Translations under genes and position numbers: made by a program
Notes under the pieces: generated by a model
Databases searched by the model: none
What the model was told of the DNA's origin: nothing
What the model saw: the letters and a program-made list of their open reading frames with translations, nothing else
Source of the DNA: Bryobacterales bacterium
GTDB lineage: Bacteria; Acidobacteriota; Terriglobia; Bryobacterales; Bryobacteraceae
Direction: 5' to 3'
Assembly (NCBI GenBank): GCA_027450225.1
Contig: DAIDJK010000001.1
Coordinates: 1 to 32,841 of the forward strand
Length of the DNA stretch: 32,841 nt
Shown: positions 9,389 to 32,462 of the stretch, piece by piece
Position numbering within the stretch: the first letter of the stretch is position 1
Layout: every line of letters begins with the position of its first letter

Positions 9389-9405
<17 letters not shown>
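7981..9405 (-). CDS. gltD: Glutamate synthase small subunit
   Basis: 474 aa; '[26 protein letters not shown]', '[48 protein letters not shown]', '[25 protein letters not shown]'. Likely true start GTG at 9396 (MGKVTGF), overlapping the gltB end. Confidence 0.97.
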
Positions 9406-14020
<4,615 letters not shown>

Positions 14021-26268: not shown

Positions 26269-26706
26269 ATGCGAATCCTGGTACAGCGTGTAATACGAGC
26301 TGAAGTACGCGTCGAAGGCAAGTTAGCAGGCTCGATAAACAAAGGCATTCTCGGCTTCGTCGGAGTAGGAGCCGGCGACACATTCGCGGAAGCGGACCAT
26401 CTGGCCACAAAGCTTGTCGAACTAAGACTATTTTCCGACTCAAACGGGAAGATGAACGCAAGTGCGCGCGACATCGGGGCCGACGTGTTGCTGGTTTCAC
26501 AATTCACTCTTTACGGGGACTGCTCGAAAGGCAGGAGGCCCAGCTTCGATGCAGCCGCGCCCCCCGGAGTGGCTCGGGCAATTTACGATTATTTCGTCCA
26601 GAAAGTGCGCGCGCAAGGTTTACGCACCGAGACGGGAGTTTTCCAGGCCCACATGGAAGTGGAACTGATCAACGATGGACCCGTCACTTTCCTGCTCGAA
26701 AGGTGA
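26269..26706 (+). CDS. dtd: D-aminoacyl-tRNA deacylase
   Basis: 145 aa; '[38 protein letters not shown]', '[26 protein letters not shown]', '[25 protein letters not shown]'-type C-terminus. Confidence 0.96.
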   Translation: [145 protein letters not shown]

Positions 26707-26716
26707 CACATCCGGC

Positions 26717-28015
26717 TCACGGCCGGTTTATGTATTTGTCGTACAGGTCCTTCTGCCGATTGTTCAGATCAACGAGCTTGCCGTTTATAAAAAGATCGTG
26801 AATCCTGGTCCGCGTTTCGAGGGGATCGCCATCGGTTACGATGATGTCGGCGAACTTACCCTCCTCGATGGTTCCCGCCTGATTGCCTATTCCCCAGATT
26901 TCGGCGGCATTTCTGGTCAGAGCCTTCAAGGCATCGTCGTGTGGGAGGCCGAAGGCGACGGCCTGAGCAGCCTGATAAGGCAGGTTGCGCGAGGACAAGC
27001 TCGCGCTCCCGGTCAGAGTGGCGAAAGCAAAGCGAATACCTGCTTTATCGAGGTCCGCGGCGGTGGTAAATGCACGGTCGTAAGGATCGTCTTCGTCCAG
27101 AGGAAGCGCGAGAACAGGTCCGAGAATGACCGGAATATCGTGCGCTTTGATCTCTTTGGCGACCTTCCATGCTTCGGGAGCTTCGCAGAGGATGATCTTC
27201 ACTCTCTGTTTATCTGCGAAGGCGATTGCGTCTCGAATCTCGCGTTCCCGAATGGCAGTGACCAGAACAGGCTCCGCGCCTTCGATCACGGGAACCATGG
27301 CCTCCAGTCTGAGATCCGGCTTGAAATCCGGCGCCTTCGTGTCCCTGGCGAGTTTGTAGCGCCGGGCGCTCTCGAAGAAATCGTTCAAATCCGACATTTG
27401 TTTGTCGAAATCGCGCTTTGCGTTCGCGAATCCTGCTCCGGGCTCCGCGCCTCCGCCGGACTCATTGTCGGGCACAAACACTCTCCGTCCCTCGGTCTGG
27501 ATGAACGGCATGCGGATATGCAGAGCCGCGCGAGCTTTGATGCCCATATCGCGTGTAGTCCAGCCGTCAAGATGTATAAGCGAAACCTGGCCTGATATAA
27601 GTTGCCCTTCCGGCATGGTAGCCACTGTGGTGATTCCGTTAACTCGAGTTACCGGGATATGTTCGCTCGAAGGATTCACGGCTGTAAGCGCGACGAGTTG
27701 CGGATTGTATCGCCCGAGTTCATCGGTGTCCTCCGTCTCACGCACCGCATTCACTTCCACGAGGCCAATTTCGGTTCCCGCGTCGATCATGCCCGGATAC
27801 ACCTGAAGCCCTCTGGCATCGATCAACTTCGCGTCCTTCGGCGCGGCCAGGTTATGGCCGACTCCGGCGATCCTGCCATCCCGAATGAGAACCGATCCGT
27901 TCTGAATATCGGGGCCGGCCATGGTGTGAATATTCGCGCCGCGGATCAAGTATGTCTGGCCACTGGCGACCGTCACCCGGATGATGGCGCATACGAGGAG
28001 AACCAAATATCTCAC
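26717..28015 (-). CDS. Secreted amidohydrolase-fold protein, third of tandem triad, lacks HxH metal motif
   Basis: 432 aa; signal peptide; composite domain 'ARGLQVYPGMIDAGTEIGLVEVNA', 'NQAGTIEEGKFADIIVTDGDPLETRTRIHDLFINGK' typical of imidazolonepropionase-like amidohydrolases. Confidence 0.87.
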   Translation of the reverse strand: MRYLVLLVCAIIRVTVASGQTYLIRGANIHTMAGPDIQNGSVLIRDGRIAGVGHNLAAPKDAKLIDARGLQVYPGMIDAGTEIGLVEVNAVRETEDTDELGRYNPQLVALTAVNPSSEHIPVTRVNGITTVATMPEGQLISGQVSLIHLDGWTTRDMGIKARAALHIRMPFIQTEGRRVFVPDNESGGGAEPGAGFANAKRDFDKQMSDLNDFFESARRYKLARDTKAPDFKPDLRLEAMVPVIEGAEPVLVTAIREREIRDAIAFADKQRVKIILCEAPEAWKVAKEIKAHDIPVILGPVLALPLDEDDPYDRAFTTAADLDKAGIRFAFATLTGSASLSSRNLPYQAAQAVAFGLPHDDALKALTRNAAEIWGIGNQAGTIEEGKFADIIVTDGDPLETRTRIHDLFINGKLVDLNNRQKDLYDKYINRP

Positions 28016-29382
28016 AGCGCCGGCCCTCCCTGTACTCGGACGGTCTGGCCGCTGCCGGCGGGCCGGCTCAAGCTTCGTTCCGCTGCCGCCTTCCCGATCA
28101 ACGCCTTCTTTTCGATTTCGAGCCGGGTACGCTGCTGAATGTCCGCATCGCGATCAAAGTATTCGTGGCCATCGATCCAGACTTTCAGAACTTTGCTGAA
28201 GTTGGAAAGCGGATGCCCGTCATAAAGGAGGACATCGGCATCCTTGCCGACTTCGAGTGACCCGACGCGATTGTCGATCATGAGTTGCCTCGCCGGGTTG
28301 ATCGTCACCAGTGAAAGAGCTTCGGTTTCGGAAAGGCCCCCGTACTTCATGGTTTTCGCGGCTTCCTTGTCGAGATGGCGCATGAGTTCGGGATCATCCG
28401 AATTGAGCGAAGTGAGTACGCCTTTACGCACCAGGATAGCGGCGTTGTATGGAATCGCATCCTGAGCCTCCATCTTGTAAGCCCACCAGTCACTGAAAGT
28501 CGAAACTCCCGCCCCGTGCGCCGCAATCTCTTTCGCCACTTTGTAAGCCTCGAGAGCATGCTGCAATGTGCGTATTTTGAAGCCGTAATCATCAGCAACG
28601 CGCAGCAGCATCAGAATTTCATCCTGCCGGTAACAGTGCGCATGGACCAGACGCTTTCCCTCGAGGACTTCCACGAGCGGTTCGAGTTTCAGATCCCGCG
28701 CGGGAGGAATTGCAATCTCGCCCCGGGCTGTCCTCGCCTTGTATTCGTCCCAGCTTGCTCTGTAAACTTTTGCGTCGTTGAAAGCCTCGCGAATCACGTC
28801 TTCCACGCCCATGCGTGTGGCCGGATACCGGGCGGCCTGCCCGGGAGCGGCAAAACCGAATCCGGTGATATTGCCGGCGCGCTTTGGATTCTCTCCGAGC
28901 GCGAATTTGATACCTGGCATCGCGCCCTGGAATTTCATTTCCTCCGCGCTCCTGCCCCAGCGCATTTTCATGACGAGCGTCTTGCCGCCAATCGAGTTGG
29001 CGCTTCCATGGAGTATGTTCGCGGTGGTGACTCCCCCGGCGAGCGCCCTATAGATCGCGATGTCTTCGGGATTCAGTACGTCACCGATGCCGACCATCGA
29101 AGATACCGAAACACTGCCTTCGTTGATGGCTTCGATCATGATGTGAGAATGGCAATCGATGATGCCCGGCATCACATACTTGCCCGATCCGTCGATCACC
29201 ATCGCGCCCGCGGGAGCAAGGACTTTCTCGCCAATCGCCGCGATTTTGCCGTTTTCAAGAAGAATGGAGCCTCTAATGACGCCGTTGGTGACGGTAAGAA
29301 TCGTCGCGTTCTGAATCAGAACCGGCAGGTCGGCGGCCACGGCCAGCGAAGCGCAGCACAAACCCAGTAATCCGAATCTCAT
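28012..29382 (-). CDS. Secreted amidohydrolase, second of tandem triad, HxH motif intact
   Basis: 456 aa; signal peptide; 'KYVMPGIIDCHSHIMIEAINEG', 'RLVHAHCYRQDEIL', 'RVGSLEVGKDADVLLYDGHPLSNFSKVLKVWIDG'. Overlaps the downstream gene by 4 nt (ATGA). Confidence 0.93.
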   Translation of the reverse strand: MRFGLLGLCCASLAVAADLPVLIQNATILTVTNGVIRGSILLENGKIAAIGEKVLAPAGAMVIDGSGKYVMPGIIDCHSHIMIEAINEGSVSVSSMVGIGDVLNPEDIAIYRALAGGVTTANILHGSANSIGGKTLVMKMRWGRSAEEMKFQGAMPGIKFALGENPKRAGNITGFGFAAPGQAARYPATRMGVEDVIREAFNDAKVYRASWDEYKARTARGEIAIPPARDLKLEPLVEVLEGKRLVHAHCYRQDEILMLLRVADDYGFKIRTLQHALEAYKVAKEIAAHGAGVSTFSDWWAYKMEAQDAIPYNAAILVRKGVLTSLNSDDPELMRHLDKEAAKTMKYGGLSETEALSLVTINPARQLMIDNRVGSLEVGKDADVLLYDGHPLSNFSKVLKVWIDGHEYFDRDADIQQRTRLEIEKKALIGKAAAERSLSRPAGSGQTVRVQGGPAL

Positions 29383-30743
29383 CAGTTTTGCTCCTCGGCG
29401 GCCGACGGGATTGCTCCGCGCCCGGCACGGCCCGGCGGGGGCGCTTCGGGCAGCGGTTCGAACTTCGCTCCGTCCACAAAAACGTATTTGATCTTCACGC
29501 GGTCCTGAAACAGGTCACCGTCCGCAACCACAAGATTCGCGATCTTGCCTTTATCGATACTGCCCAGCCGATCCGCAACTCCGAAGATCTCTGCGGGCGA
29601 AAGCGTCATGGCGCGAATTGCATCGTCCGGCGGGAGTCCCGCATCGATAGCCTTTTTCGCGTTCCGCAACAACTCGCGCGGCGCGCCGGCATTGTCCGAG
29701 TAGAACGCAAACTTCACGCCTGCTCTGGCCAGAATGCCAGGCGAAGAGGGCGCTTTGTCCCGGAATTCGAGTACTCGAAGTGGGTCCTGCAGCGCGGGAT
29801 CGTTGTCCGCCATGCGTTGCGGCCATCGGAGACTTACCAGTACCGGAGTGTTCGACGCCTTCAGTTCATTGACGGCCTTCCATGCCTCGTGCCCACCATA
29901 TAAAACAGCGTTCAGCTTGAGTTCCCTGGCGAGAGCCAGCATGCGCAGCACCTCCACCTGTCTTTCTGCGGGGAGCAGCACGCGCGGGCTCATGATTACG
30001 CCTTCGAGCGTGCGGTCATATTGCGGCCGCTGCAATCCCTGTGGATGTTTCTCGTAAACGGACTTCGCGACGGTATAGTGTTCCGCGTCCAGATAAATCT
30101 GCCGGATATAGGCGATCGTTCCCATCAGGGAGCCGGGGAAACTGCGGAAGCCGTTGGTTTTCAGAATGACGCACTGGCCCACCGAATCGGCAACCACCAT
30201 CTGCCCGGCACGCTCTCCCGCAAGATCGATAACGCTTCCCTGCCCCGAGAAGATGTTCTGATTGGGAAAAACAACGGCTGTGGTGAAGCCGGCGTTTCTA
30301 GCCATTTCGATGGCGGGAGCGGTTGGCGATATCTCATCAGCCGCTTTCAGATACGAAGTATTGGATGGCCTGTCTTCCGGCCCCCGTGATGGCGGTCCCG
30401 TGGGGGGACCTGCCGCACCTCTGCCCCGCCCCTGCGCGGGGGGCGCTGCCGCGGCGCCGGAAAGTCCCCAGGTGCTCAGGGCGTCAATCAGCCCCGGGTA
30501 TACCGTCAACCCTTTGCAGTCGATGACCCACGCATCGGCCGGAATCGCCACGCTGGATCCAACCGCCTCGATCAAACCGTCGCGAACCACCACCGTGCCA
30601 TGCTCGATCACCGGACCCGATACGATTACCACCCGGGCGTCGCGCAGAACGTAAGCGCCCGGCCCCTGCGCCGCCATGTCTGCAGCCGTCGATGCCGTAA
30701 TTATCGCGGCCAGTATGAGCGTCGGTCTGAATCGCAATTTCAT
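29382..30743 (-). CDS. Secreted amidohydrolase-fold protein, first of tandem triad, lacks HxH metal motif
   Basis: 453 aa; signal peptide; 'CKGLTVYPGLIDALSTWGLSGAAAAPP', 'DRLGSIDKGKIANLVVADGDLFQDRVKIKYVFVDG'. Stop/start shared with the next gene (TGATG). Confidence 0.87.
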   Translation of the reverse strand: MKLRFRPTLILAAIITASTAADMAAQGPGAYVLRDARVVIVSGPVIEHGTVVVRDGLIEAVGSSVAIPADAWVIDCKGLTVYPGLIDALSTWGLSGAAAAPPAQGRGRGAAGPPTGPPSRGPEDRPSNTSYLKAADEISPTAPAIEMARNAGFTTAVVFPNQNIFSGQGSVIDLAGERAGQMVVADSVGQCVILKTNGFRSFPGSLMGTIAYIRQIYLDAEHYTVAKSVYEKHPQGLQRPQYDRTLEGVIMSPRVLLPAERQVEVLRMLALARELKLNAVLYGGHEAWKAVNELKASNTPVLVSLRWPQRMADNDPALQDPLRVLEFRDKAPSSPGILARAGVKFAFYSDNAGAPRELLRNAKKAIDAGLPPDDAIRAMTLSPAEIFGVADRLGSIDKGKIANLVVADGDLFQDRVKIKYVFVDGAKFEPLPEAPPPGRAGRGAIPSAAEEQN

Positions 30744-30796: not shown

Positions 30797-31849
30797 ATGG
30801 TTACACCTGTTTCGTACCGCGACGCCGGCGTCGACATTGACGAGGCCGACAAAGCGGTAAGCGCCATCCGGCGCATGGCCCGAGCCACGTTCACCAAAGG
30901 CGTGCTTACCGACATCGGTTCCTTCGGTGGCTGCTTTGCGCTGCCGAAGATGCGGCAACCCGTACTGGTGAGTTCGGTCGACGGCGTCGGCACAAAGCTC
31001 AAGATCGCCTTCGCGACGGGGCGGCACGACACGGTCGGCGAGGACCTGGTGAATCACTGCGTGAACGACATCGCGGTCCAGGGCGCGAGGCCACTGTTCT
31101 TTCTCGATTACTTCGCGGTAGGCAAACTGGATGCGGACGTGGCGGCGAAGGTAATCTCCGGCATCGCGCGAGGTTGTTCCGCGAATGGTTGCGCGCTGAT
31201 CGGAGGCGAAACCGCGGAGATGCCCGGCCTTTACTCGGACGGTGAGTACGACCTTGCGGGCTCGATCGTCGGCGTTGTCGAGAAATCCGAGATTATCACG
31301 GGAGCAGGAACGCGCGACGGCGATGCTTTGGTCGCGCTGCCATCCAATGGCCTGCACACCAACGGTTATTCACTGGCCCGCAAGCTGCTGCTGGAGATGA
31401 AACGGATGCCGCTGGACGCGGCGCTGCCCGACTCCGGCATTACGCTGGCCGAGGAGTTACTCAAGATACATCGCAGTTATCTCGCCGCCATTCAGTCGCT
31501 GATCAAAGCCGGCGCGCTCTCGGGCGCGGCGCACATCACAGGCGGCGGAATCACCGACAATCTGCCGCGCATTTTGCCGAAAGGACTGGCCGCAATCATC
31601 GACACTCGTTCGTGGCAAGTCCCTCCACTGTTTGAACTGCTGCGTTCGACCGGTTCGCTGGATGAAAACGACTGGCGGCGAACCTTCAATCTCGGCGCCG
31701 GAATCATCTTCGCCGTCCCGGGCACAAAGACGGACAAAGCGATACGCGCGCTGAAACGATTGGGGGAGAAACCCTGGATCATCGGCGACGTGGTGAAGCA
31801 GCGCCGTGGCAGACCGCGCGTCGAGTACGCAGCCTGGGAGCGCGCCTGA
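30797..31849 (+). CDS. purM: Phosphoribosylformylglycinamidine cyclo-ligase
   Basis: 350 aa; 'SYRDAGVDIDEADKAV', 'VLVSSVDGVGTKLKIAFATGRHDTVGEDLVNHCVNDIAVQGARPLFFLDYFA', 'GGETAEMPGLY'. Confidence 0.97.
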   Translation: MVTPVSYRDAGVDIDEADKAVSAIRRMARATFTKGVLTDIGSFGGCFALPKMRQPVLVSSVDGVGTKLKIAFATGRHDTVGEDLVNHCVNDIAVQGARPLFFLDYFAVGKLDADVAAKVISGIARGCSANGCALIGGETAEMPGLYSDGEYDLAGSIVGVVEKSEIITGAGTRDGDALVALPSNGLHTNGYSLARKLLLEMKRMPLDAALPDSGITLAEELLKIHRSYLAAIQSLIKAGALSGAAHITGGGITDNLPRILPKGLAAIIDTRSWQVPPLFELLRSTGSLDENDWRRTFNLGAGIIFAVPGTKTDKAIRALKRLGEKPWIIGDVVKQRRGRPRVEYAAWERA

Positions 31850-32462
31850 CTTGCGCCTCGGAATCCTGATCTCCGGCCGGGGCTCCAATTTCGAAGCCAT
31901 CGCGAATCAAATTGCCCGGCGCAAGCTCGACGCGGAAGTCGCGATTGTGATCAGCAACCGCGCCGACGCGCCTGGACTAGAGATCGCACGTCAGCGTGGC
32001 ATTCCGCTGCGCGTGATCGCGTCAGCAGGTCTTGAGCGCGAAGCTTACGACCGGCTGGTTGTGGACGAACTGCGCACCCACGAAGTGGAGATCGTCTGTC
32101 TGGCGGGCTTCATGCGGCTGCTGAGCGCGTACTTTATCCGCTCGTTTCCGAGCCGCATTCTGAATATCCACCCGTCGCTGCTGCCGGCATTTCCGGGTCT
32201 GGATGCCCAGCGGCAGGCGCTCGAACACGGCGTCAAGATCACCGGCTGCACGGTGCACTTTGTCGATGAATTTCTGGACTCCGGGCCGATCGTGATCCAG
32301 GCGGCGGTTCCGGTTCTGGACAACGACACCGTCGAATCTCTTTCGGCTCGCATCCTCTCGCAGGAGCACCTGATTTACTCAAGGGCGATTCAGTACATTG
32401 CAGACGGCCGCGTCACGATCGAGGGCCGGCGGGTGAAGATTCGGGAAGAAGCGGCCGAGTAA
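31806..32462 (+). CDS. purN: Phosphoribosylglycinamide formyltransferase
   Basis: '[21 protein letters not shown]', '[66 protein letters not shown]'-like. Start uncertain: GTG 31806 (overlaps purM) or TTG 31851. Confidence 0.95.
   Translation: [218 protein letters not shown]

Follow-up and report, generated by a model that had tools for sequence, protein, structure and literature searches.

The window analysed here, a stretch of 32,841 nucleotides from the genome of a Bryobacterales bacterium, contains three consecutive genes for exported proteins of the amidohydrolase fold, and raises the question why an organism should encode such proteins side by side if only the middle one has a recognisable metal site. 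An earlier note on this DNA had proposed that one active enzyme is co-produced with two pseudoenzyme paralogs, and ligand loss, the conserved trio and natural gene fusions support this proposal. We consider it probable that the three genes, here termed A, B and C, encode an exported heteromer of obligate partners, with B as the only metallohydrolase and A and C as ancient metal-less subunits that pack against it. The case is built on patterns read from sequences, namely ligand loss and retention, co-conservation, fusions, shared export and purifying selection.

The gene order, coordinates and motifs given earlier stand, as does the TGATG overlap of A and B; the overlap of B and C had been given as ATGA and is corrected to GTGA (Table 1). 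The N termini of A, B and C are each hydrophobic and signal-peptide-like. The operon is isolated, with purM divergent and dtd convergent to it (purM, purN and dtd are names read from the sequence, without a family search). These genes also flank the triad at two other loci labelled as Bryobacteraceae (L168, L169). Apart from this synteny of purM/purN and dtd in close relatives, no recurring functional gene family was found to adjoin the triad, and ABC ATPases occur next to it at what appears to be background level. The genome has 14 PF01979 matches, of which only A, B and C are clustered; this sole cluster, together with the conservation of the layout across phyla, argues that the trio is more than a chance arrangement. 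Elsewhere in the window, the minus strand has an open frame of great length (1543 codons).

Table 1. Features of the A-B-C locus and further open frames of the window.
Feature	Position	Strand	Description	Basis
gene A	29382..30743	-	exported metal-less amidohydrolase paralog (putative pseudoenzyme), 453 aa	ORF; PF01979 57.7 bits; 3ooq E=1.4e-29
gene B	28012..29382	-	exported amidohydrolase, HxH-K-H-H-D site intact, 456 aa	3ooq E=9e-63, full length
gene C	26717..28015	-	exported metal-less amidohydrolase paralog (putative pseudoenzyme), 432 aa, GTG start	ORF; 3ooq E=1.7e-32
A/B overlap	29380..29384	-	TGATG stop/start overlap	sequence
B/C overlap	28012..28015	-	GTGA start/stop overlap (ctgTGAg)	sequence
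B H78-x-H80 codons	29143..29151	-	metal ligands	invariant in two alignments
B K159 codon	28906..28908	-	putative carboxylated Lys ligand (GIKFALGEN)	98% conserved in B
B H249 codon	28636..28638	-	beta-5 His ligand (VHAHCYRQDE)	99% conserved
B H275 codon	28558..28560	-	beta-6 His ligand (LQHALEAYK)	99% conserved
B D329 codon	28396..28398	-	beta-8 Asp ligand (LNSDDPEL)	99% conserved
dtd	26269..26706	+	flanks triad, convergent	name read from sequence
purM/purN	30797..32462		flank triad; purM divergent from 30797	names read from sequence
long open frame	9389..14020	-	1543 codons	

All three proteins score above the curated Pfam gathering thresholds in profile searches with PF01979/PF07969, and their best solved relative in common is 3ooq, an amidohydrolase of Thermotoga maritima MSB8 from structural genomics, which they match over nearly the full length (E 1e-29, 9e-63 and 2e-32 for A, B and C). 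Because this best match is shared and near full length, the assignment to the amidohydrolase fold is sound, and the earlier description of three amidohydrolase-fold genes with signal peptides holds. 3ooq belongs to the same subfamily as A, B and C and has 38% identity with B; it was solved as copies of a single chain, unlike the heteromer proposed here, and a literature search found no paper on the structure. Among solved proteins, neither sequence nor fold searches found any of the A or C type. The best scores against the named enzymes of NCBIfam (such as imidazolonepropionase, Xaa-Pro dipeptidase and NagA) were 58–68 bits, below the curated equivalog cut-offs of 225–650.

The alignment with 3ooq, in which all six ligand positions are common to B and the solved protein, separates B from its neighbours. 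B retains H78, H80, K159, H249, H275 and D329 (HHKHHD), A of the window has lost the first five ligands and kept only the beta-8 Asp, and C is devoid of all six. The claim that only the middle protein keeps the metal motif is thus confirmed against a solved amidohydrolase, as far as aligned sequences can tell. The same holds for relatives, in which the complete set is present in 135 of 138 aligned B domains and in none of 107 A and 131 C domains; the three deviating B domains are one misfiled metal-less domain (L149) and two in which the Lys column is unmatched. The beta-8 Asp occurs in 25 of the 107 A domains, across phyla. Judged by the site expected in the amidohydrolase superfamily (HxH, Lys or Glu, His, His, Asp), only B qualifies, and A and C fail. 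These motif reads, like the E-values, rest on automatic alignments.

In a tree of 100 rows, A, B and C form one clade each (SH-aLRT 99–100), a diverged active/inactive pair, termed B' and C', makes up two further clades, and 3ooq groups with the active domains. The B'-C' pair occurs without A (L134, L136–L143, L260–L262, L071–L080), and most C' copies retain only the first His of the HxH. A third, more distant variety of active/inactive pair, also without A, is found in Pseudomonadota (L279–L292). One genome of 2.1 Mb carries six related domains as three active/inactive pairs in tandem, the last of them fused (L149; G066:C4, 2170–9867).

Active and metal-less genes are closely linked. Among the 196 active domains of type B or B' whose surroundings were read, 191 are directly followed by a metal-less paralog, separate or fused, as expected for an enzyme/pseudoenzyme heteromer; the sampled loci cover about a dozen bacterial phyla, include many MAGs, are not all randomly drawn and represent lineages that are not independent of one another. 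Of the other five loci, three are truncated at the end of a contig, one continues into masked sequence, and one is a real exception, with A-B and no C nearby (L231). No partner at the sampled loci keeps at least four of the six ligands. For B domains, a metal-less paralog is in most cases found directly upstream as well (142 of 175). Among 61 relatives, A, B and C were gained and lost together with near-perfect co-presence; two relatives seemed to have a single gene (A in G014, C in G036), but in each case the locus breaks off at the end of its contig. When 85,000 species genomes were scanned, 80 loci were obtained, many of them from MAGs, which by the names in the records belong to Acidobacteriota, Gemmatimonadota, Planctomycetota, Verrucomicrobiota, Krumholzibacteriota, Eisenbacteria, Zixibacteria, Ignavibacteria, Marinimicrobia, Hydrogenedentota, Rhodothermota, Bacteroidota and Betaproteobacteria. 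Within the phylum of the window, 121 of 247 genomes encoded a B-type enzyme, as did 94 of 148 sampled Bacteroidota and 36 of 299 sampled Pseudomonadota. Five triad-bearing congeners have an extra orphan C-type paralog elsewhere, with no A or B near (L081, L296, L297, L298, L299). The co-occurrence that the earlier proposal had led one to expect in related genomes proved near-universal, and is accompanied by natural A-B, B-C and A-B-C fusions.

The modules are encoded as three genes, as an A-B fusion followed by C, as A followed by a B-C fusion, as a B-C fusion upstream of A (L178, L181, L184, L191) or as a single A-B-C frame. A-B fusions of about 1000–1100 aa with a separate C are common in Bacteroidota and Verrucomicrobiota. 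Triple fusions, single ORFs of ~1340–1540 residues, are found in several phyla (among them L114 with 1419 aa, P0006, and L152, L180, L182, L186, L188, L192, L199, L203 and L205). The module order A-B-C is the rule, and in triple fusions the active module is always central. An N-terminal hydrophobic segment is present in 86–87% of the separate genes but in only 0–3% of the internal fusion modules, which indicates that all modules share one exported compartment. In many lineages A has an extra C-terminal segment of ~110–130 aa before B, with a GTW... motif and beta-rich by eye (L200, L185, L226, L244, L155); the four such proteins that were scanned gave no Pfam match for it.

Two natural fusions were modelled with AlphaFold2, the A-B fusion L156 (856 aa, 21 sequences) and the B-C fusion L184 (864 aa, 17 sequences), with pTM values of 0.83 and 0.84, respectively. 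In each model a single domain aligns to a solved chain, the best being 3ooq with a TM of 0.88–0.90. Two equal, freely moving domains would, by our own estimate, give a pTM of roughly half. Because the values are high despite linkers that are disordered in the models (pLDDT about 30–40), the A-B and B-C fusions are predicted to pack in a defined domain–domain arrangement, with the reservation that pTM is a self-estimate and that AlphaFold2 may pack homologous domains in a homodimer-like way by habit.

The loss of the canonical ligands would be of less consequence if A and C were enzymes active through another chemistry or a metal site of non-canonical type, the operon then encoding three enzymes of one pathway. 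Catalysis with a reduced metal site is known from some members of the superfamily, and both proteins have strongly conserved polar residues of their own (R149, R214, Q215, D219, R239 and R267 in A; E87, D96, E99, R124, D313 and R343 in C). Such residues are also expected if A and C were retained in a non-catalytic role, and a search of the 107 A and 131 C domains for substitute ligands detected no His or Cys conserved to at least 60% at the active site. The sole column at this level is C-terminal in protein C and remote from the active site (64% His; the window has Gln). The former ligand positions vary freely in both proteins. Conservation at the 85% level comprises 116 positions in B against 46 in A and 61 in C, and only in B has it the density of an active site. 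With neither a conserved His/Cys cluster nor a full ligand set in the first and third proteins, the pseudoenzyme reading stands, and we regard catalysis by A or C as improbable.

Proteins without a metal site could also be decaying duplicates dragged along with B, and A and C do evolve faster, with mean tree distances of 2.6 and 1.9 compared to 1.25 for B. Against decay, the reading frames of nearly all copies are intact in about a dozen phyla, A and C have signal peptides and conserved residues of their own, and the three genes are present or absent together. Among congeners, the two closest pairs without saturation of dS give a dN/dS of ~0.10–0.14 for A and 0.09–0.12 for C, compared to 0.07 for B, values that indicate purifying selection maintaining A and C at the sequence level. 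We therefore reject decay, which is refuted by this conservation and has next to no probability left. On a further reading, the inactive paralogs would act purely in trans, as periplasmic receptors, regulators or in substrate delivery, and would not be bound to B in a stable stoichiometric complex. The orphan C paralogs and the many lineages with A and C as separate secreted proteins fit such a role; however, recurrent fusions in all combinations tie the modules together 1:1:1, and the packing predicted for the fusions is a defined one, and we think a purely in-trans role unlikely. Between-species pairwise distances of the A, B and C modules correlate (r=0.84–0.87; none of 5000 permutations was as high, the best reaching 0.41), which is expected from joint inheritance and is by itself no proof of contact. 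Genomic linkage and fusion can likewise reflect co-regulation without stable contact, and L231 and the five congeners with orphan C paralogs are counterweights to an obligate trio.

On the heteromer reading, which we favour, the three genes would give rise to one periplasmic enzyme, with B as its only metallohydrolase, containing a binuclear-type HxH-Lys-His-His-Asp site. A and C, ancient paralogs that lost the metal site and kept the fold, may pack on B as obligate non-catalytic subunits, where they could complete or gate the substrate pocket and stabilise B. We infer both the physical assembly and the dependence of B on its partners, whose part may be that of a scaffold or of substrate recognition. 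C would be the core partner, since it is found with B in lineages without A and since a diverged B'-C' pair exists, and A would be a second partner in most lineages. The substrate hydrolysed is presumably a small polar amide, a peptide or a cyclic amide.

Mitochondrial processing peptidase and the M16A/M16C peptidases combine an active zinc subunit with a homologous metal-less subunit, as separate chains in some M16 members and as one fused chain in others, and the inactive part (the alpha subunit in mitochondrial processing peptidase) helps to form the active chamber and to bind substrate (PMC11266112). The A-B-C trio may be likened to mitochondrial processing peptidase in mode, as an active protein with metal-less homologues, separate or fused, whereas fold and family are unrelated and there is one inactive partner there but usually two here. 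The review of M16 has no mention of amidohydrolases (PMC11266112). Within the amidohydrolase superfamily, the pseudo-dihydroorotase of Pseudomonas ATCase is an inactive protein that an active enzyme requires as a structural partner (PMC7053772). As a dead partner of an active enzyme it resembles, by analogy, the role proposed for A and C, although its partner is a transcarbamoylase and not an active paralog such as B. It is also cytosolic and not exported. The trio is a member of neither system. The COG1228 Zn-dependent carboxypeptidases and prolidases (Cc2672, 3mtw; 3feq/3n2c; the Xaa-Pro dipeptidase 2qs8) belong to the same superfamily, have a similar composite beta-sandwich and barrel and likely share the type of metal centre with B; their identity in the fold search is low (14–19%), and to our knowledge their structures are those of single-chain enzymes for which an inactive partner has not been described. 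Metal-dependent bile salt hydrolases (2026 preprint, PMC13081902) were set aside, being PF07969 YtcJ-like single-chain enzymes. In the open-access literature we found no account of this active/inactive amidohydrolase arrangement.

More generally, and with some hesitation, we lean towards a bacteria-wide class of exported amidohydrolases in which one or two dead paralogs invariably complete the active subunit and contribute to the substrate site in trans. Such a class would be the counterpart, within the superfamily, of mitochondrial processing peptidase; a large proportion of Bacteroidota and Acidobacteriota genomes would encode it, and several phyla would have it with all three domains fused. 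If this is true, a large exported family annotated merely as "amidohydrolase family protein" is being misread as a set of independent enzymes. Two thirds of its domains would be unable to catalyse by the known mechanism, so that activity screens of single genes would fail or mislead. The family would then also represent a natural experiment in pseudoenzyme evolution, in which a partnership that arose by ancient duplication has been kept across phyla as separate genes and as two-way and three-way fusions.
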